In this document: piece by piece, positions 1,765 through 16,306 of the stretch
How positions within the stretch are numbered: position 1 is the first letter of the stretch
Layout: every line of letters begins with the position of its first letter
IMG/VR virus record: IMGVR_UViG_3300044796_000202
Coordinates: 1-43,323 of that record
Direction: 5' to 3' (one strand)
Source of the DNA: a virus
DNA length: 43,323 bases
Program-made: the position numbers and the translations under genes
Notes under the pieces: generated by a model
What the model was told of the DNA's origin: nothing
The model's database searches: none
The model's input: the letters and a program-made list of their open reading frames with translations, nothing else

Positions 1765-2028
1765 TTATTTACCGCATCGTATACACCGCCCCAAGTTACC
1801 AATCACACATCTCAAGCACTTCGGCATATCCTTTTGCACATAGGGACAACTGAAATGGCAATCCGATGAGAGCAACATCCCGCATACGGGACAATGGCCT
1901 GCTTTCTCGAAAGGAGAGATGAAGGGGTGGCCGCGCTTGCCCTTCCATGGCTTCCGATGGTCAGCACGCCACTTACGTTGCCAGTCCCGCTTATAGGCTT
2001 TTATTTTTTCTGATGGCATAGTAATCAT
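1765..2028 (-). CDS. Zinc-ribbon hypothetical protein downstream of terminase
   Basis: 87 aa when started at the ATG that overlaps the terminase stop as ATGA (2025-2028); a longer form from 2049 is possible. The N-terminal half is basic (KAYKRDWQRKWRADHRKP), and the C-terminal half has three Cys pairs (CPVC, CLRC, CIRC) and further Cys/His residues, so it should bind zinc. The basic stretch suggests nucleic acid binding. No HNH catalytic pattern is clear. Confidence 0.6.
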   Translation of the reverse strand: MITMPSEKIKAYKRDWQRKWRADHRKPWKGKRGHPFISPFEKAGHCPVCGMLLSSDCHFSCPYVQKDMPKCLRCVIGNLGRCIRCGK

Positions 2029-3677
2029 AGATCGGTTTTTGTTCCCCATTGGAGCATCACGCCGCCATTCTCAACAATTGGTCCTCGCGGTATGCCTTCC
2101 ATGATATTTCCTGGCCGGATGATCTTCGCCATATCGCCACCGTACTTTTGCAGTCCTACGATGGCATAGAGAAGCGCGTGGCAATAATCGTCATGGCCAT
2201 TGCGCTTCCATACATATTCAGGCCCGTACAAACTCCGGTCATCCTTTTCTGGCGTATTCTTTGAGGTAATAAGTTCCCGATAGATATGGTCGAATTGCGC
2301 CGCAAAGCTCGCCCATTCGTCTTTCGTACCATTCAATTGAATACGCCCCGTATCCCGTAGTTGTTCAACCATAAGCGTCATCATGCGGTTACGGTCAACG
2401 TACACCTCGCCATATTTATCTCCTTCGCCCCATTGCACCATCTCTGTTGTCTTGCGGTCTTTGCGATAGAAGCATAGGAACACACGTCCTGGATATTCAG
2501 CTTGTAGTTTCCTAACACCAATCAAATCGCCTCCTTGGTCAAATACTGCCTTTGACTTCGGGAAACGCCTCAAATGGCCACGGATAACGTCATAAGGATC
2601 TTTGCTCGCTGTTATCAGTTCTGCCCTATCGTAGAAAAATACGCCCTCCTTGTTCATCAGGACGTAATTAATGCCGTGCGATGTATCAGCCCCGATTATA
2701 GTTATTCCCTCTTGGCTATTCACTCGGTCTACACAATTTCGCAAAACAACCGATGGCTCGATCCTATCCTCACTCCCGATGTAGGGAAGCCCTAGGACGT
2801 AGTTATAGAAGTATTGCTTGTCCTTTTGCGGGTCGTTGAACGCTTTGATGATGTCTTTCGCGCTCTTGTTGTAGAGCATAAGTTGGGAGATGTGATAGCC
2901 CGAAAAATCGGGTTGTTTGTCACCAACGTAATTTTGCTTCCATCTCCCGTTAATTCTTTGATCATCTGAAATAATTTCATGGCACTCTCGACAGATATAA
3001 GTTCCGGCATCTCGATCAACATTTTCGGGCCATTGTAGGTATTGTTCGTGTCCATTTTTGCATTTAATAAACCATTCTTTTTTATCCGATTGTTGCCAGT
3101 ACACGTCTACTCCATGTCCGCTCAAGCTGGGGTGACTAAAATACCATCGCCAACCGCCATCCTCTTGTGCTTGCAAACGGTTCTCATATTGCGTGATAAC
3201 ATCCTGATCGCTCGCGTCCACCTCGTCGTGGATATTCAGACCGGATGGAATCATCATAGCTTGCTTGGCCGTGAACGTACCGCGATAGAATATCATCGCC
3301 TCGCCAACCTGTTTCTGTTCAACGGTATCATGGTCTTTCGTCCAATCCTGCAAGATAGCGTTCTGGGCGATAATACGATTGAACGAACCACCAACCATGT
3401 CCTGCACGTCTCCCATCGTGGGAAGCGTATAGATTATCTGCCGCCGCAATTTCTTAGCTATGTAGAATGCTTTGAGAATGTTGCATACCGTCATGCCAAC
3501 CTGCGGCGGTTTCAAGATTACTTGTAAAGGACTGAGGTCGTTATAAATATCAAACAAAAACTTGCGCTTTTGAAACTCAATGGGGAAACCAACCTCATTC
3601 TTTATCTTGTGCTTGATCGCCCACAGTGCCGGACTCCCTTCCATCGCTTGACTCACCTGTTCCTCGGTATAGATCAT
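2025..3677 (-). CDS. terL: Terminase large subunit (gpA-like)
   Basis: 550 aa packaging motor and headful or site-specific nuclease acting at the portal. The ATPase half shows a Walker A-like KPPQVGMT near residues 56-63 and a Walker B segment IHDEVD near 149-154. A zinc knuckle follows (Cys206, His210, Cys229, Cys232), typical of the lambda gpA/GpA family. The nuclease half has Asp in GADTSHG (about 329-335), a second Asp in AVFDQGG (about 380) and the late NGHDDYCHALLY acid/His cluster. It overlaps the small subunit by 83 nt if started at 3677; an internal Met (residue 12) would shorten that. On the circle it precedes the portal gene with only small genes between. Confidence 0.93.
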   Translation of the reverse strand: MIYTEEQVSQAMEGSPALWAIKHKIKNEVGFPIEFQKRKFLFDIYNDLSPLQVILKPPQVGMTVCNILKAFYIAKKLRRQIIYTLPTMGDVQDMVGGSFNRIIAQNAILQDWTKDHDTVEQKQVGEAMIFYRGTFTAKQAMMIPSGLNIHDEVDASDQDVITQYENRLQAQEDGGWRWYFSHPSLSGHGVDVYWQQSDKKEWFIKCKNGHEQYLQWPENVDRDAGTYICRECHEIISDDQRINGRWKQNYVGDKQPDFSGYHISQLMLYNKSAKDIIKAFNDPQKDKQYFYNYVLGLPYIGSEDRIEPSVVLRNCVDRVNSQEGITIIGADTSHGINYVLMNKEGVFFYDRAELITASKDPYDVIRGHLRRFPKSKAVFDQGGDLIGVRKLQAEYPGRVFLCFYRKDRKTTEMVQWGEGDKYGEVYVDRNRMMTLMVEQLRDTGRIQLNGTKDEWASFAAQFDHIYRELITSKNTPEKDDRSLYGPEYVWKRNGHDDYCHALLYAIVGLQKYGGDMAKIIRPGNIMEGIPRGPIVENGGVMLQWGTKTDL

Positions 3678-4047
3678 TAAGTTTTGAGGTCAATTCCTTG
3701 ATCTCGGGAGGTGCTTCGACCTCCATATTTACATTAATATGTTTATCAGGTGCGTACGACCCTTGCACCTTGAACACTTGGTCTGCCGCTGATAATCTCG
3801 AACTTGCGACCACATTCTTGTCATAGAGGATTTCAGCTACAACTTGTTTAGCACCTTCCTCGCTAAAACCTAAATTATTAAGCTCGTTCTTAACTCCTTG
3901 TGCCTCTAAAATGATGGCTGGGTTCGCTGAAGCGGTAATTTCACTATAGCCAGCAGAAACCAATAAATCCTTTTTTTGTCTAGTGCGCTTTAATTTAGCG
4001 TCCAAGACGATCTCTTCAGCTAGTTTTTTCTGTAATCTTGTGGACAT
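3595..4047 (-). CDS. terS: Terminase small subunit
   Basis: 150 aa. The N-terminal region holds a helix-rich segment, KKDLLVSAGYSEITASANPAI, matching the DNA-binding helix-turn-helix common in small terminases, followed by an oligomerisation-type middle (LNNLGFSEEGAKQVVAEIL) and an acidic, flexible C-terminus. It lies directly before and overlaps the large subunit, as expected. It should recognise the packaging start site and load DNA on the large subunit. Sequence alone does not tell whether packaging is by headful or cos cleavage. Confidence 0.8.
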   Translation of the reverse strand: MSTRLQKKLAEEIVLDAKLKRTRQKKDLLVSAGYSEITASANPAIILEAQGVKNELNNLGFSEEGAKQVVAEILYDKNVVASSRLSAADQVFKVQGSYAPDKHINVNMEVEAPPEIKELTSKLNDLYRGTGESSDGRESGTVGDQAQDKE

Positions 4048-4309
4048 AAGGATGAATTTCGTACAAACCTATATCTTTACGATATGAAGGGCTAAATCCC
4101 ATTACATTTAATCTTTCCCTCACCTCATCAGCTTTTATATAATCAGCGACCTTATGGGCATTCATCCACATGATTAACCCAGTTTCGGGGCCAACAATAT
4201 CCCCAACTTCATAGTTCGCTTCTACGGGAAAATGAGCGAGAACATGAGCATTAATTCGTTCATTCCACAACCTACATTCTGATCCGCATAAGCTACACTG
4301 ATTATTCAT
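4016..4309 (-). CDS. Hypothetical protein
   Basis: 97 aa, not recognised. It has one CSLCGSEC motif at the N-terminus and a mixed alpha/beta remainder. It overlaps the next gene (terminase small subunit) by 32 nt and the previous gene by a few bases, so it belongs to the same tightly packed transcription unit between GroEL and terminase. Confidence 0.6.
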   Translation of the reverse strand: MNNQCSLCGSECRLWNERINAHVLAHFPVEANYEVGDIVGPETGLIMWMNAHKVADYIKADEVRERLNVMGFSPSYRKDIGLYEIHPYVHKITEKTS

Positions 4310-4604
4310 GTGTTAAAATGAGTCCCAAAACAGTTTCGGGGTTAATATCCCTTACTACCACCATTTTCTCGTTCCTAATGCCCCACCCGCGCCAATTACC
4401 GTCTTTTTGCCTTATTAAACTTATCGCATTTGGATTCTTCGCCGGATCATGCTCATTCACGATTTCCTGCGTTTCTGCCTCTAACTTCTTATTCTCTTCA
4501 ATCGCATTATATCTATGACAAATCGTGCAAACTTTATTGCGACATTGAAGCAAGGGGGCATCTCCCGCGCATTTTTCGCAACATGCTTGTTTTATTTCTT
4601 CCAT
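4302..4604 (-). CDS. Zinc-binding hypothetical protein
   Basis: 100 aa from the ATG at 4604, which overlaps the preceding stop by 13 nt; a start at 4667 would overlap it by 76 nt and is less likely. The first 40 residues have three Cys pairs (CCEKC, CRNKVCTIC) suggesting a zinc ribbon. The C-terminal part carries IRQKDGNWRGWGIRNEK and ends in a strand-rich segment. Function unknown. Confidence 0.6.
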   Translation of the reverse strand: MEEIKQACCEKCAGDAPLLQCRNKVCTICHRYNAIEENKKLEAETQEIVNEHDPAKNPNAISLIRQKDGNWRGWGIRNEKMVVVRDINPETVLGLILTHE

Positions 4605-4989: not shown

Positions 4990-5065
4990 GATTTTGTTTA
5001 GCTTTTTTTCTTTCTGCTATCCTTCGCAAGGTTCTAGGACGAGGCTGTTTTGGCTTTTTGTTCAT
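4970..5065 (-). CDS. Small basic peptide after GroEL
   Basis: 31 aa, almost half Lys/Arg. Its ATG overlaps the GroEL stop as ATGA (5062-5065), the arrangement used throughout this genome for translational coupling. No conserved motif. It may be a nucleic acid binder or a chance frame; the coupling is the main support. Confidence 0.4.
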   Translation of the reverse strand: MNKKPKQPRPRTLRRIAERKKAKQNHASKAL

Positions 5066-6726
5066 TGTTGCACTGATGTTCTTTGATCGACCATTTTCTC
5101 GACCATTCCCGACAGGCTTTCTGTTTCCCGAGGCAATGTAACGACTGTGCCGATCGTGAGAATTGAAGCCGCCACGCCGATTGCATTTTTAATTGCTGAG
5201 AGGACTACTGACGCAGGGTCAATGATTCCTGCCTCAAACATATCTACTATTTTCCCCGATTTACTGTCAAATCCATAGATTTTTTTATCCCCTTGTAAAT
5301 ATCCTAATGCTATTTCGCACATTACATCATCACTGTTCGCCCCTGTATTTCTGATGATTGTTTCTATCGGTTTTTTCATCGCCAAGTCAAGTATAGTAGC
5401 CCCGATAGTAGTATCATTACCATTCAACAATGCTTCGCTTGCATGAGATAATGCCAATCCCCCCCCCACTACAATCCCATTCTGCAAGGCCACTTGTGCG
5501 GCGTTTAGCGCGTCTTCAGTTTTCAAGCGACGGTATGCTAAAGCACTTTCACTGTGCGCTCCCACATGATAAATAGCCGTCTTCGTGTTCAATCTCGCTA
5601 TCCGGCGCAAAGCATCATCGCTACCGTCCTCTTGTAATGATTTGATATAATCAAAGACCATACCACTTCCTTGTTCCAATTTTGTGAAGTCTTTTATGCC
5701 GTCGAGGTAAGTTGCTTCCGTATCAACTTTGATTTTCGCTACTCTCCCAAGGTGTTCCATTTGAACTTTCTTGAGCTTGATACCAGAAGCCTCATCAATG
5801 ACCGTCGCTCCCGTGGCATGTGCCAAATCCACCCACCATTCATCGTTTAGGATTACTGGCATTTTGATTACCAAAATCCTCATGCCAAGCTTTTGTGGCG
5901 CACGGGCGAGAACAAAACTGTTTATCATCAAAGGCTCTACCTCATCCACGAAAATGACCAGTCCTTTTCTCTGTTGGTTCACAAGGGTCATCACCAGATT
6001 CTCCAAATCGGCTTGAGATGATATCTTGCGGCGAGCCAGTAAGATAAGCGGATTTTCGAGAGTAGCCTCGTTCTTGAAGTTTGTGCCGGCCATATCGCAC
6101 ATATAGGGAGAAACATAGGTTGCCCCTTCGATTTTTAGCCCCGTACCAATGGAATACCAATCGTCCGGCGTTTTGGAGGCCTCCCATGAAATAAGGCCTT
6201 CCGCGCCTATTTTCTCGTAAATCTCTGCTATCATCTTGCCTATTCCCTCGTCTTCGGCCGAGATTTCGGCCACTTGCTTTAAGAGTTTAAAATCAATCAC
6301 GCCATCTTTGACTAACTCCTTTTTCTGTTCGTTAATTGATTTTTCTATCAAGGGAATGCAAGCTTCGAGGGAACGCTTAATTTCCATCGGAGAAGTTTCA
6401 CCGATATGTTTCAAGCCTTCTTCGAGGATCGCCGCCGTGAGAACACAGGTCGTGGAACTGCCATCACCACTCGATTTGTTCGCGCGTGAGACCGCCTCAA
6501 AAAGGATGCGACGTCCCATTTCCTCTAGGGTATCTTCAAATCGAATTGAAGCCAAGATCGATATGCCATCGTTCGTAGTATAGAAGCCTGGATTTTGGAT
6601 GGCCTCAATCAAACTATTACTTCCTCCAGTCCCAAGGGTAACGCCTACTGCATCCGCCGCACGTTGCACTCCTCGCATAAGCTTCTCTCTCGCTATATCT
6701 TTTGTGAACAGATTGTCTTTAATCAT
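5062..6726 (-). CDS. groEL: Phage-encoded GroEL-type chaperonin
   Basis: 554 aa, full length for group I Hsp60. The ATP site is intact: VTLGTGGSN (bacterial LGPKGRN) near residue 29, NDGISI with the Asp of the catalytic pair near 53, GDGSSTT at 87-93, an EDAL motif matching the catalytic Asp398 region of E. coli GroEL, then GIVVGGGLAL and the GIIDP...AI..A segment near the C-terminus. The GGM tail of bacterial GroEL is missing; the end is MVDQRTSVQQ. The apical domain is divergent. A GroES-like gene lies two genes upstream. Likely role: folding of capsid or other virion proteins in a host whose own chaperonin is insufficient (inference). The start lacks a Shine-Dalgarno site. Confidence 0.95.
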   Translation of the reverse strand: MIKDNLFTKDIAREKLMRGVQRAADAVGVTLGTGGSNSLIEAIQNPGFYTTNDGISILASIRFEDTLEEMGRRILFEAVSRANKSSGDGSSTTCVLTAAILEEGLKHIGETSPMEIKRSLEACIPLIEKSINEQKKELVKDGVIDFKLLKQVAEISAEDEGIGKMIAEIYEKIGAEGLISWEASKTPDDWYSIGTGLKIEGATYVSPYMCDMAGTNFKNEATLENPLILLARRKISSQADLENLVMTLVNQQRKGLVIFVDEVEPLMINSFVLARAPQKLGMRILVIKMPVILNDEWWVDLAHATGATVIDEASGIKLKKVQMEHLGRVAKIKVDTEATYLDGIKDFTKLEQGSGMVFDYIKSLQEDGSDDALRRIARLNTKTAIYHVGAHSESALAYRRLKTEDALNAAQVALQNGIVVGGGLALSHASEALLNGNDTTIGATILDLAMKKPIETIIRNTGANSDDVMCEIALGYLQGDKKIYGFDSKSGKIVDMFEAGIIDPASVVLSAIKNAIGVAASILTIGTVVTLPRETESLSGMVEKMVDQRTSVQQ

Positions 6727-12218: not shown

Positions 12219-12386
12219 TTATTTTTTTATGGTCGACCGGATTTTTTGGCATCCGAAGCAAACTTGGGTCAACGCATCGTGAAACGTGGAATAAATTGCC
12301 TGTTGCGTATGCTTACCTTCACACTCTTGGATATGTTTGCGCACATCTTCCATTTTCTCGATATATTCGTAGATAAAATTGATCAT
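12219..12386 (-). CDS. Small hypothetical protein
   Basis: 55 aa, mostly helical (MINFIYEYIEKMEDVRKHI), with CFGC near the C-terminus and CEGKH earlier, so a possible metal site. Its ATG overlaps the stop of the repeat protein gene by four bases (12383-12386). The 47 bases between it and the next gene are A/T-rich leader. Confidence 0.55.
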   Translation of the reverse strand: MINFIYEYIEKMEDVRKHIQECEGKHTQQAIYSTFHDALTQVCFGCQKIRSTIKK

Positions 12387-13255
12387 TTTTTCTTTATTTC
12401 TTTCCCAAATTTATCGCATTCAAACAAGACCTTTCCTTTTCGGAATGCGATTTTATAGGGATATGAGGGGCTATTTTTCCATTCATGCAAGTCTTCCAAT
12501 GCTATTTCAATGGCGATATAACGATCTCCGATATTGTTTCGAAATTCATCGCAGAAATAAGGCCGCGAACAAGCATGGAACTTTCCCTCGCCGCATTCTT
12601 CACGATCGGGACTCCAATTTTTATGCGTTAAAGTCTTCCCTATTTTCCAGTGGGTTTCATTTGCAGTTTTCTCTCGTGTCTTAAAATCTTTTGAGACTTT
12701 TTTATACAGGATTACCTTTTTCGTCTGTTCAATGCAATTTCGTTCAAACCAACCCAAATCTTGGGTAGTTTGGATTATGGCGTATTTCGATTCTTTCTTG
12801 ATATCTACTTTGATGGAGATAGGCAAAAAGGCCACTGAAAAACCATGAAGGATGACTTTTGCGGTATCCCAGAAGATTCTTACAATGCTATTTCCCCAAG
12901 CCTCGACCGAGCTATTTCCCCAAGCCACGACCGAGCTATTTTCCCGAGCCTCGACCGAGCTATTTCCCCAAGCCACGACCGAGCTATTTTCCCAAGCCAC
13001 GACCGAGCTATTTCCCCAAGCCACGACCGAGCTATTTCCCCAAGCCTCGACCGAGCTATTTTCCCAAGCCTCGACCGAGCTATTTTCCCGAGCCACGACC
13101 GAGCTATTTCCCCAAGCCACGACCGAGCTATTTCCCCGACGTCCGATGATCACAATTCTTTCCTTGGTATCTTTGAGATAAATATAGGTATATACCTCAA
13201 ATTTTTGAGGAAGTTCATCGAATTCTTTTTGAGTTTTTATGTATATTTCTGCCAT
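12383..13255 (-). CDS. Octapeptide-repeat (beta-solenoid-like) protein
   Basis: 290 aa. Residues 41-128 are eleven tandem 8-residue units of the form [GE]NSSV[VE]A[WR], the last one degenerate (GNSIVRIF). Such short regular repeats with an inward V/A pattern suggest a narrow beta-solenoid. The C-terminal domain (about 150-290) has EECGEGKFHACSRPYFCDEF and a strand-rich end, YPYKIAFRKGKVLFEC, possibly a metal-binding or effector domain; I recall similar repeat-plus-domain proteins in phages and bacteria without known function. It lies in the early region, so it is not obviously a virion fibre. Confidence 0.7.
   Translation of the reverse strand: MAEIYIKTQKEFDELPQKFEVYTYIYLKDTKERIVIIGRRGNSSVVAWGNSSVVARENSSVEAWENSSVEAWGNSSVVAWGNSSVVAWENSSVVAWGNSSVEARENSSVVAWGNSSVEAWGNSIVRIFWDTAKVILHGFSVAFLPISIKVDIKKESKYAIIQTTQDLGWFERNCIEQTKKVILYKKVSKDFKTREKTANETHWKIGKTLTHKNWSPDREECGEGKFHACSRPYFCDEFRNNIGDRYIAIEIALEDLHEWKNSPSYPYKIAFRKGKVLFECDKFGKEIKKK
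12872..13135. repeat. Eleven tandem 24-bp coding repeats
   Basis: Each 24-bp unit encodes one octapeptide of the repeat protein. Copies differ mainly at three positions, giving Gly/Glu, Val/Glu and Trp/Arg in different combinations. Because the unit is a multiple of three, several frames on both strands stay open; only the minus-strand frame with start and downstream domain is taken as coding. Confidence 0.9.
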
Positions 13256-14054: not shown

Positions 14055-14501
14055 TTATTTATTGTTGATTAGTTTGTAGAGCACACTTGCCGCCTCAAAC
14101 CCTTTCTTCATCGCCGCCGCATCATACTGATATTGCGGCTCAACTTTCTCTGCACCGAATGGAAAAACGATGTAACAATCGAATAATCCATCCAGCTTGT
14201 GAGCACTATCTGCTGGTATTTCAGCCATAGAATTACCGTTGTCATCGAACAATCCATTTTCGCTCACTTCGATGTCGTATCCTGCAATCTGGATGAATTG
14301 CGAGAGATACGCTTCTTTCGATGACTTGAAGTCAATGATTGCCAGCTTTCCATCGTTCAATTCGGCTATGCAATCGGTAATGCCACCAACCCAAAGCCGT
14401 TCGCTATAACAATGAGCTTCGGATGCGATAAAGCGTTTGACGTTTTTTATCGCCCAATCAGCAAAAATCTTGACTTGAGGACTTTCTGTTTCGTACTTCA
14501 T
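14055..14501 (-). CDS. PD-(D/E)XK nuclease, C-terminal part of split gene
   Basis: 148 aa carrying the catalytic core of a RecB/Cas4-type exonuclease: Glu28, Asp43 in GGITD, the Asp57-x-Lys59 motif in IIDFKSS, and the QFIQIAGY motif at 69-75. It lacks the N-terminal helical part normal for such phage nucleases; that part is encoded by 15022-15441 on the other side of an HNH gene. The start overlaps the HNH stop by ATGA. The two halves probably associate to form the enzyme used in recombination or end processing. Confidence 0.75.
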   Translation of the reverse strand: MKYETESPQVKIFADWAIKNVKRFIASEAHCYSERLWVGGITDCIAELNDGKLAIIDFKSSKEAYLSQFIQIAGYDIEVSENGLFDDNGNSMAEIPADSAHKLDGLFDCYIVFPFGAEKVEPQYQYDAAAMKKGFEAASVLYKLINNK

Positions 14502-15025
14502 TTTTTTATTCTGTAATACCTTTTGCTAATTGTTTTTCTGGTTACTGCATAAAATTCTCCGATAGCCTTAAACGTCATTCCCTGATCCCTCATCTTGATT
14601 ATCTTTTTATTTTCAGAATTGGATATTTTATTTTGCCCGTCGAACTCCGAATGACACGGAACGCACAATACTTTCCAATCCCTTACATCTCGAAGATATT
14701 TTCCGCTTATGTTCGCTCGATGCAATTTTCCTTTCGCCCCGCACGACGAACATTCTTTTGCGGAAAGATAACGTCTTATCCACATATGAATTCCCGAATA
14801 CCTTATCTTTTTCTTTTGCCGTTCCTTTTTTTCCCTTCCTTTTATCGCCAAACCGGCGCATGTCCTAGAACAGTATCTTGCTTCTTTTTCCCTGAAGGGG
14901 AAGACCCAAAAATCGTTTCCACACTTACATCTACGCCACTTCCCACGCCTATTGGCATTACCTATGTTTTCCTTCCATTTCTTAGTCCTTTTGGGTATTC
15001 TCCTGCCAATTGAATCTAATCTCAT
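14498..15025 (-). CDS. HNH homing-type endonuclease inserted in nuclease gene
   Basis: 175 aa. Basic N-terminus with an extra zinc knuckle (CKCG...CSRTC, about 33-56), then the HNH core: CSSC at 92-95, LHRANISG with His102, and CVPCHSEFDG at 121-130. A C-terminal helix-turn-helix (KIIKMRDQGMTFKAIGEF, about 140-158, continuing to 172) should add DNA contacts. It sits precisely between the two parts of the PD-(D/E)XK nuclease and overlaps both by ATGA, as a selfish homing gene would after insertion. Confidence 0.85.
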   Translation of the reverse strand: MRLDSIGRRIPKRTKKWKENIGNANRRGKWRRCKCGNDFWVFPFREKEARYCSRTCAGLAIKGREKKERQKKKIRYSGIHMWIRRYLSAKECSSCGAKGKLHRANISGKYLRDVRDWKVLCVPCHSEFDGQNKISNSENKKIIKMRDQGMTFKAIGEFYAVTRKTISKRYYRIKK

Positions 15026-15441
15026 ACTTCTAAAGGTACACCATTATTATCCTTAATGCAAGCGATAATAAAATTGGACAAATCGAGGTGCATATCCGAA
15101 CCCTTATCCGCTGCCTTATCGAGCTTCACGGAATGAGCCTTGTACGCTTTGTCGAGGAGTTTCACAAAACTCTCCGGCTCCATAGCTTTCAATTCAAGTA
15201 AATGGACTCCCGCACTTTCCAAACGCTGTTTTTTATTCTCCTCAATTTCTTCTTTTGTTGGCTTCGGCTTACTATATGCTGTGAGTTCTTTGACCCATCC
15301 CAATTCTGCAACTGCAAGCCCCGATGCCCACCATGTTAATGGCTTCGCAATCACGCTAACGACAGTGGATGTACCAAGAAGCGGCTTGCCATCCAATTCG
15401 TGAAGATGCTCTCCTTTTGAATCGTAGTATTGGTATCTCAT
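15022..15441 (-). CDS. PD-(D/E)XK nuclease, N-terminal part of split gene
   Basis: 139 aa with the helical N-terminal elements of phage RecB-like nucleases: LLGTSTVVSVIAKP, a WWASGLAVAELGW helix, and KAADKGSDMHLDLSNFI, the conserved helix with Gly and His that packs next to the active site. It ends at VPLEV with no catalytic DxK motif, and the continuing part is found at 14055-14501 in a different frame. Its stop overlaps the HNH start by ATGA. Confidence 0.72.
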   Translation of the reverse strand: MRYQYYDSKGEHLHELDGKPLLGTSTVVSVIAKPLTWWASGLAVAELGWVKELTAYSKPKPTKEEIEENKKQRLESAGVHLLELKAMEPESFVKLLDKAYKAHSVKLDKAADKGSDMHLDLSNFIIACIKDNNGVPLEV

Positions 15442-15635: not shown

Positions 15636-16082
15636 CTATGGAGAGAAATTAGGATAAGTTACGAATAATCTTGCCTGTTTCCTAGCGTTACATCTTCTGC
15701 ATAACGGTTGGATATTCTCGATATTGTGAGAACCGCCTTTGCTTAATGGGATTATATGATCTTCAGTTAATCTAATTTCTGGTTCAGATTTTAGACATGA
15801 TGGGCATTTGAAGTTATATTGCGCTTTCAAATTTTCCCATTCTCCCAAAGTATGATTGCCATTTGCACCAAGTTCTCTAATTCGACGAACTCTAGCTTGA
15901 TGAATGAAATACTCTCGATTTGTAGCAAACTTTTTCTTATACCATTTGTCGTGCTGTTCTTTGAATTTATCTGGATGCAATACTCTCCACTTTTTAGAGT
16001 TCAAAGATTTTTGGCGACGGTGTAGTTTGTTATAAACCTTGTCGTACTCACTTTTTCGTTTTTTATTCCTCCACTGTTTCAT
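15636..16082 (-). CDS. HNH endonuclease (free-standing)
   Basis: 148 aa. A long basic helical N-terminus (residues 1-70) leads to a classic HNH domain: Cys93 and Cys96, EDHIIPLSKGG with Asp108-His109, His119-Asn120, and CRRCNARK with Cys128, Cys131 and Asn132. All catalytic and zinc residues are present. It is bounded by non-coding DNA on both sides, with a structured stretch immediately upstream, so it may be a mobile homing gene. No interrupted gene is evident around it. Confidence 0.88.
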   Translation of the reverse strand: MKQWRNKKRKSEYDKVYNKLHRRQKSLNSKKWRVLHPDKFKEQHDKWYKKKFATNREYFIHQARVRRIRELGANGNHTLGEWENLKAQYNFKCPSCLKSEPEIRLTEDHIIPLSKGGSHNIENIQPLCRRCNARKQARLFVTYPNFSP

Positions 16083-16136
16083 TTCTCTTCATAGAACCAT
16101 CTTATTCCTCTCAAGGCGGTGTCTCCCAGCCAGATT

Positions 16137-16306
16137 CGCTAGGCAAGCGGGAGAGCGACTCCTCACCTGCTTACCTAACGAACCTAACCGAGAGAACCTA
16201 TTGCATGATTCGCTGGTAAGAGCCAAATACGTTCGGGATAATTTTTCACCTCGGATGCCTCCGACGCATTTCTTCCCCATAACTGGCTCATATCAGCGAA
16301 CCATGC
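16137..16306 (-). ncRNA. Putative structured RNA upstream of HNH gene
   Basis: In the 278-bp gap 16083-16360 there are several paired arms. Stem 1: 16137-16148 with 16169-16180 (12 bp, two wobbles). Stem 2: 16203-16215 with 16294-16306 (13 bp, one mismatch or wobble), continuing after a 4-nt internal loop as GAGCCA 16220-16225 with TGGCTC 16284-16289. Stem 3: TCGGA-TGCC-TCCGA at 16251-16264. GGAC-TT-GTCC lies at 16327-16336. Strand is assumed from the neighbours. It could be a ribozyme, intron remnant or regulatory RNA; no class was recognised. A 63-aa frame here is not convincing. Confidence 0.5.

Follow-up and report, generated by a model that had tools for sequence, protein, structure and literature searches.

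How does the gene of a phage exonuclease come to lie in two pieces on either side of another gene, and can an enzyme that is encoded in this way still be assembled? This question is raised by a locus in the 43,323-nucleotide stretch of DNA analysed here, referred to as the window, which is one entire IMG/VR virus record (IMGVR_UViG_3300044796_000202) from an uncultivated phage. In this locus, the N-half of an exonuclease, an HNH-like gene and the C-half of the exonuclease form three consecutive minus-strand open reading frames (ORFs) in three different frames (Table 1). An initial annotation had described these ORFs, an ATGA overlap at both seams and the location of the two halves in different frames, all of which is found in the sequence exactly as described, and had proposed that one PD-(D/E)XK nuclease was split by an HNH homing gene. 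We consider it likely that an HNH-like homing gene was inserted, that this left the exonuclease as a gene in pieces, that the insert was moved by homing with co-conversion of its flanks, and that the product is a two-chain exonuclease, as predicted from the retained residues. The evidence drawn on is of the sequence kind and comprises the layout of the locus, intact homologues, a second split phage, an incongruent phylogeny, a shared flank and the retention of the catalytic motifs.

Table 1. Features of the split exonuclease locus, in window coordinates
Feature	Position	Strand	Remarks
N-half of RecB/MGME1-like exonuclease, 139 aa (P0001)	15022..15441	minus	helical part and motif Ia His118
HNH-like homing-type nuclease gene, 175 aa (P0002)	14498..15025	minus	Cys motifs and C-terminal helix-turn-helix
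C-half of exonuclease, 148 aa (P0003)	14055..14501	minus	Glu28, Asp43, Asp57-x-Lys59, Gln71-x3-Tyr75
Seam 1, ATGA	15022..15025	minus	N-half TGA stop overlaps ATG start of HNH-like gene; same in L002
Seam 2, ATGA	14498..14501	minus	TGA stop of HNH-like gene overlaps C-half ATG start; same in L002
Probable co-conversion tract, N side, 77 bases	15022..15098	minus	84% identical to L002 (blastn)
A AAA AAA heptamer, zero frame, directly 5' of TGA of HNH-like gene	14501..14507	minus	possible -1 frameshift or transcript slippage site

The seams taken by themselves prove little. ATGA junctions are carried by 12 of the 69 adjacent minus-strand gene pairs of the window, as counted with a crude gene call, and the small gene that precedes the N-half is also joined to it by such a junction; the seams were therefore rejected as special evidence. 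What we regard as standing above chance is the existence of intact homologues and the occurrence of the same architecture in a second phage.

The C-half matches the exonuclease family phrog_298 (E 1.4e-11, profile positions 138-209), and the match of an intact homologue on contig L044 to this family covers positions 63 to 216; the two halves are hence parts of one protein. Fourteen close homologues from IMG/VR and genome contigs, one of them from a Patescibacteria MAG, are each encoded by a single uninterrupted ORF of about 260-290 amino acids, and the N-half of the window aligns to residues 1 to about 135 of these proteins, with His118 being invariant. Among 104 more distant homologues, 103 continue through the insertion site and the remaining one is cut by the end of its contig. 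Together, the family matches and the uninterrupted homologues bear out the proposal that a single nuclease was split, and the converse possibility, that the halves are separate genes throughout the family, was checked and does not hold. The host gene is thus a contiguous ORF in relatives, as it is in the Aeh1 nrdA/mobE case discussed below. When the junction is aligned to the intact homologues, the insert falls in a loop of variable length between a YVKxCI helix and an FxxWAxENVxKF helix, and in an AlphaFold model of the intact L044 protein (mean pLDDT 84.5) the seam is located in the loop between the helix formed by residues 86-128 and that formed by residues 141-153. Judging from this model, a chain break at this point is structurally plausible.

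As for the gene between the halves, its designation as HNH is weaker than the initial annotation implies. The insert protein has cysteine motifs, with the core RYSGIHMWIRRYL..CxxCGAxGKLHRANIS..DWKVLCVxCHSEFDG, and a C-terminal helix-turn-helix, and its similarity to PHROG HNH families is weak (E 0.009), with a better value for its homologue in the second split phage (E 1.7e-7). However, neither of these two proteins gave a match to the Pfam HNH models at the curated cut-off, and because of this we use the label HNH-like only, for what is a weak assignment by remote similarity. The predicted structure of the insert protein is poor (mean pLDDT 45), the exception being the C-terminal helix-turn-helix, which is confident in the structure model and weak in Pfam, and a sequence search of the PDB returned no relative. 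Distant relatives of the protein were found in 2 of 380 Patescibacteria genomes, where they are located between genes. One such relative in a Patescibacteria genome (L129, 1255-1725, plus strand) has a four-base overlap at its start with the preceding gene and slightly overlaps the next gene; these overlaps suggest that the nuclease family to which the insert belongs inserts as ORF-only cassettes.

Group I introns harbour many of the HNH genes by which phage genes are interrupted, and for the ICP1 genes with HNH-containing group I introns splicing has been demonstrated by RNA-seq and RT-PCR (PMC10448857). By analogy, the HNH-like ORF might sit in a divergent self-splicing intron, in which case the spliced mRNA would encode a normal one-chain exonuclease. 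We regard this as highly improbable, since an Rfam search of both split loci at E up to 10 returned only unrelated RNA models and no intron core, and the window has no Rfam intron match at the gathering level either; moreover, the ORF takes up the entire insert, so that a ribozyme core would have no non-coding sequence to occupy, and each of the exonuclease halves has its own stop and start. An intein was ruled out by the three different frames and the stop at each seam. At the DNA level, no intron or intein was found around the nuclease gene, and the absence of both is likewise a feature of the Aeh1 nrdA/mobE arrangement.

The second split exonuclease is present in IMGVR_UViG_3300014838_000066 (L002), in which the N-half (3088..3474), the insert (3471..4004) and the C-half (4001..4420) are again joined by two ATGA seams, and the insert proteins of the window and L002 are 60% identical. 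The split contigs total two, these being the window and L002: further copies of the insert were found neither in IMG/VR, as searched by protein, alignment and DNA pattern, nor in phage or plasmid records. The window, L002 and a third contig with an intact exonuclease, L050, are otherwise related, their TerL proteins being 70-82% identical, their major capsid proteins about 75% identical and their gene order similar, and it follows from this relationship that intact and split alleles coexist in one phage group. The L044 contig has only the exonuclease in common with the window in the gene comparison. The window allele of the exonuclease is closest to that of L044, and the other window genes match L050 and L002, which amounts to allele exchange at this locus.

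In an exonuclease tree from which the seam columns were excluded, the window exonuclease is sister to the intact L044 protein (support 97/95), and that of L002 pairs with the intact L050 protein (99/96). A tree joining both split genes is rejected (dlnL 108.7, p-AU 1.2e-25), and a split clade is also rejected by the N body alone (p 8e-5) and, marginally, by the C body alone (p 0.044). Vertical inheritance of a single split was rejected on this result. When the seam columns are used alone, they unite the two split genes with a support of 95/96. This is reflected in the identities between the window and L002 proteins. In the N-half, they rise from 36% in the body to 86% over the final 21 residues, and in the C-half they fall from 73% over the initial residues to 50% in the body; overall, the seam is 81% identical versus 43% in the bodies, and the seam identity of the split pair lies 5.8 residual SD above the relation found in 91 intact pairs. 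At the seam, the split genes compared with their own intact sisters are 22% and 40% identical in the N tail and 27% and 18% in the C head. With blastn, only the 77 bases adjoining the insert align between the two N-halves, and on the C side the DNA match between the split genes is longer and does not have a sharp end. Seam residues and a 77-base flank upstream of the insert that no genes but the two non-sister split ones have in common are, on our reading of these alignments, the pattern predicted by homing with flank co-conversion. Mobility of the insert to the same site is thus indicated indirectly from phylogeny, since two alleles that are not sisters carry this insert and have the seam in common, and it seems to pass from phage to phage, with the exonuclease kept in two pieces.

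The relatedness of the window, L002 and L050 with their similar gene order, and the union of the split genes by the seam columns, would also agree with a single ancestral split in the window and L002, after which recombination replaced the surrounding exonuclease and L050 lost the insert. However, this scenario needs a replacement close to the insert on both sides and a clean loss in L050, as opposed to one homing event with co-conversion, and the bodies reject a split clade; it seems unlikely to us.

With regard to the function of the two halves, the best structural match of the intact L044 protein is human MGME1 (E 7e-7), followed by other RecB-type nucleases. In MGME1, Asp238, Asp251 and the motif Ia residue His180 jointly bind the A-site metal, the B-site metal is supported by Glu223 of motif I, and Lys253 as well as Gln271 and Tyr275 of motif IV are also important (PMC6237815). 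Although the overall sequence similarity between MGME1 and the phage exonuclease is very low, a profile alignment pairs the MGME1 motif Ia FHEALE with the phage sequence GTDMHAELE, and the MGME1/RecB-type set of residues, namely the motif Ia His, motif I Glu, motif II Asp, motif III Asp-x-Lys and motif IV Gln-h-x-x-Tyr, is found in full. By alignment, His118 of the N-half corresponds to motif Ia, and Glu28, Asp43, Asp57, Lys59, Gln71 and Tyr75 of the C-half correspond to motifs I-IV; these motifs are invariant in the family and retained in both split phages. Whereas MGME1 is a single chain, motif Ia and motifs I-IV are here distributed over two chains. Since the metal-binding His is located in the N-half and motifs I-IV in the C-half, and since all of them are retained, the two exonuclease chains are predicted to form one active enzyme with a shared active site.

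It could be argued instead that the split inactivated the exonuclease and that its halves are decaying in a phage that relies on another nuclease. A Glu that is invariant in the 14 intact proteins and lies four positions beyond the motif Ia His is replaced by Ser in both split N-halves, and the activity of the two-chain form is a prediction. However, this Glu-to-Ser change lies inside the stretch that is common to both split N-halves and was probably co-converted, and its positional counterpart in MGME1, Glu184, is not essential: the activity of the E184A variant is only slightly weaker, whereas that of the H180Q variant is significantly lower (PMC6237815). In addition, both halves remain open in two divergent phages with motifs Ia and I-IV kept, and decay is disfavoured because the split genes, with branches of 0.36 and 0.28, do not exceed their intact sisters (0.41 and 0.25) in branch length. 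A dN/dS test says little on selection, as dS is saturated. We therefore think it improbable that the exonuclease is decaying.

The end of the HNH-like gene deserves separate mention, as the A7 heptamer before its TGA (Table 1) is present in L002 too. A -1 frameshift or transcript slippage at A AAA AAA TGA could fuse the HNH-like protein to the C-half in a fraction of the product, and this chimera could be the working nuclease. In favour of this, both phages have a perfect zero-frame heptamer immediately 5' of the stop, and the minus strand of the window contains no other A7-TGA, but a stable stimulatory structure is absent (z 0.43 and 1.52), the first seam has no comparable slippery site and the A-rich end may simply be common by descent. 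We consider such a fusion very unlikely. There is likewise only a slim chance, in our estimate, that the HNH-like protein, or its A7 frameshift fusion with the C-half, is now a working part of a recombination-type exonuclease that may serve the insert's own repair pathway. A search for a regulatory hairpin over the internal starts gave no strong structure (z -0.39, -1.63, 0.43 and 1.52).

According to the explanation that we favour, a free-standing HNH-like homing endonuclease gene would have entered the loop-coding stretch of a RecB/MGME1-like exonuclease gene without an intron or intein, the inserted DNA being essentially the ORF alone. Because the start and the stop of the insert overlap the N-half stop and the C-half start, all three ORFs are probably translated from one message by termination-reinitiation, and their translation would thus be coupled. 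We infer that the insert protein is active as an endonuclease with a target in the unsplit gene, and that it would cleave uninterrupted alleles of co-infecting phages. Repair templated by the split allele would then copy the insert gene plus short flanks, and for this reason two different exonuclease alleles would have the insert and the seam residues in common. The two chains would presumably assemble into an active enzyme, to which the N-half would supply the metal-binding His and the C-half the Glu, Asp, Asp-x-Lys and Gln-x-x-x-Tyr residues.

Several other features of the window were recorded. A second, clear HNH gene (15636-16082, minus strand; Pfam HNH_5 E 7e-16, HNH 2.6e-13) is located close upstream of the split exonuclease, and no similarity between this gene and the insert was found. 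Just upstream of it, at 16117-16199, lies a very stable hairpin whose stem measures about 30 bp (-64.7 kcal/mol for a 141-nt fold, z -6.8); weak Rfam microRNA matches at this position were set aside as mere hairpin resemblance, and none of the other loci compared contains a copy of the hairpin. A 24-base tandem repeat at 12887-13137 (10.5 copies, 93% matches) lies inside the ORF 12383-13255, which encodes GNSSVVAW-like repeats and belongs to phrog_15773, a family of unknown function. The window also encodes a phage GroEL-like chaperonin (5062-6726, minus strand; phrog_5725, E 1e-89), which is about 55% identical to those of the L002 and L050 phages and, among the matches listed, at most about 34% identical to phage records. 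Of 380 Patescibacteria genomes, 5 contain relatives of the window TerL protein (2025-3677, minus strand) that are 35-38% identical to it, as compared with at most 26% identity to phage records among the matches listed, and a Patescibacteria host for the window phage is therefore plausible.

Enzyme genes in pieces have been described previously. The nrdA-a, mobE and nrdA-b genes of phage Aeh1 constitute a genes-in-pieces ribonucleotide reductase (Friedrich et al. 2007, via PMC2988022 and PMC3653736), and Edgell, Gibb and Belfort discuss, besides Aeh1 mobE in nrdA, the topoisomerase gene of T4 with mobA inside it and gene 43 of phage 25, which is likewise split; activity has been reported for the split reductase of Aeh1 and for the polymerase of phage 25 (PMC2988022). 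The initial annotation had likened the locus to an intron-free split of nrdA in a T4-like phage, and the closest precedent is indeed nrdA/mobE of Aeromonas phage Aeh1, which is T4-like, rather than T4 itself. In both cases, an HNH-type gene free of intron and intein splits the gene of a DNA-metabolism enzyme that is contiguous in relatives, and both enzyme pieces are kept as separate ORFs, which in Aeh1 give an enzyme reported to be active. Here, however, the host gene is a RecB/MGME1-like exonuclease gene in another phage group, the nuclease is unrelated or remotely related, and two alleles that are not sisters contain the same insert and have a flank in common; furthermore, the start of Aeh1 mobE is controlled by an RNA hairpin (PMC2988022), whereas none was found at the window locus. 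Free-standing homing genes between enzyme pieces are also seen in T4, where mobA lies in the gene of the large topoisomerase subunit, and in Aeromonas phage 25, where seg43 lies in the split gene 43 and the polymerase pieces co-purify and are active (PMC2988022). These two differ from the window case in their host genes; in addition, seg43 is a GIY-YIG gene, and gene 43 may already have been split when seg43 entered it (PMC2988022). Finally, at the UAAUGA junction of T4 nrdA and mobE a stop/start overlap suggests that the homing gene is coupled to upstream translation (PMC2988022), as we propose here; T4 mobE, however, lies between two genes and not inside one, while the window insert has four-base overlaps at both of its ends. 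From the sequence comparison, we take the window case to be of the Aeh1 nrdA/mobE 'genes-in-pieces' kind, with a new host gene and a new phage group but not a new category, and the sequence evidence for movement of the insert is unusually clear.

Known examples of free-standing homing genes that split an enzyme into working pieces are few, and a review of the subject lists three, all of which are from T4-like phages (PMC2988022). The locus described here would add another enzyme class, in a very different and uncultivated phage group. As intact and split alleles occur in one group and the insert is found in two non-sister alleles, its movement and the accompanying co-conversion can be read from sequence, and the location of the metal-binding His and the remaining active site on separate chains makes a sharp test of the predicted two-chain enzyme possible. 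In T4, exonucleases influence homing efficiency and co-conversion (PMC2988022). If end resection is among the roles of the exonuclease in the window phage, the selfish gene would occupy a gene of the very pathway that is needed for its own homing.
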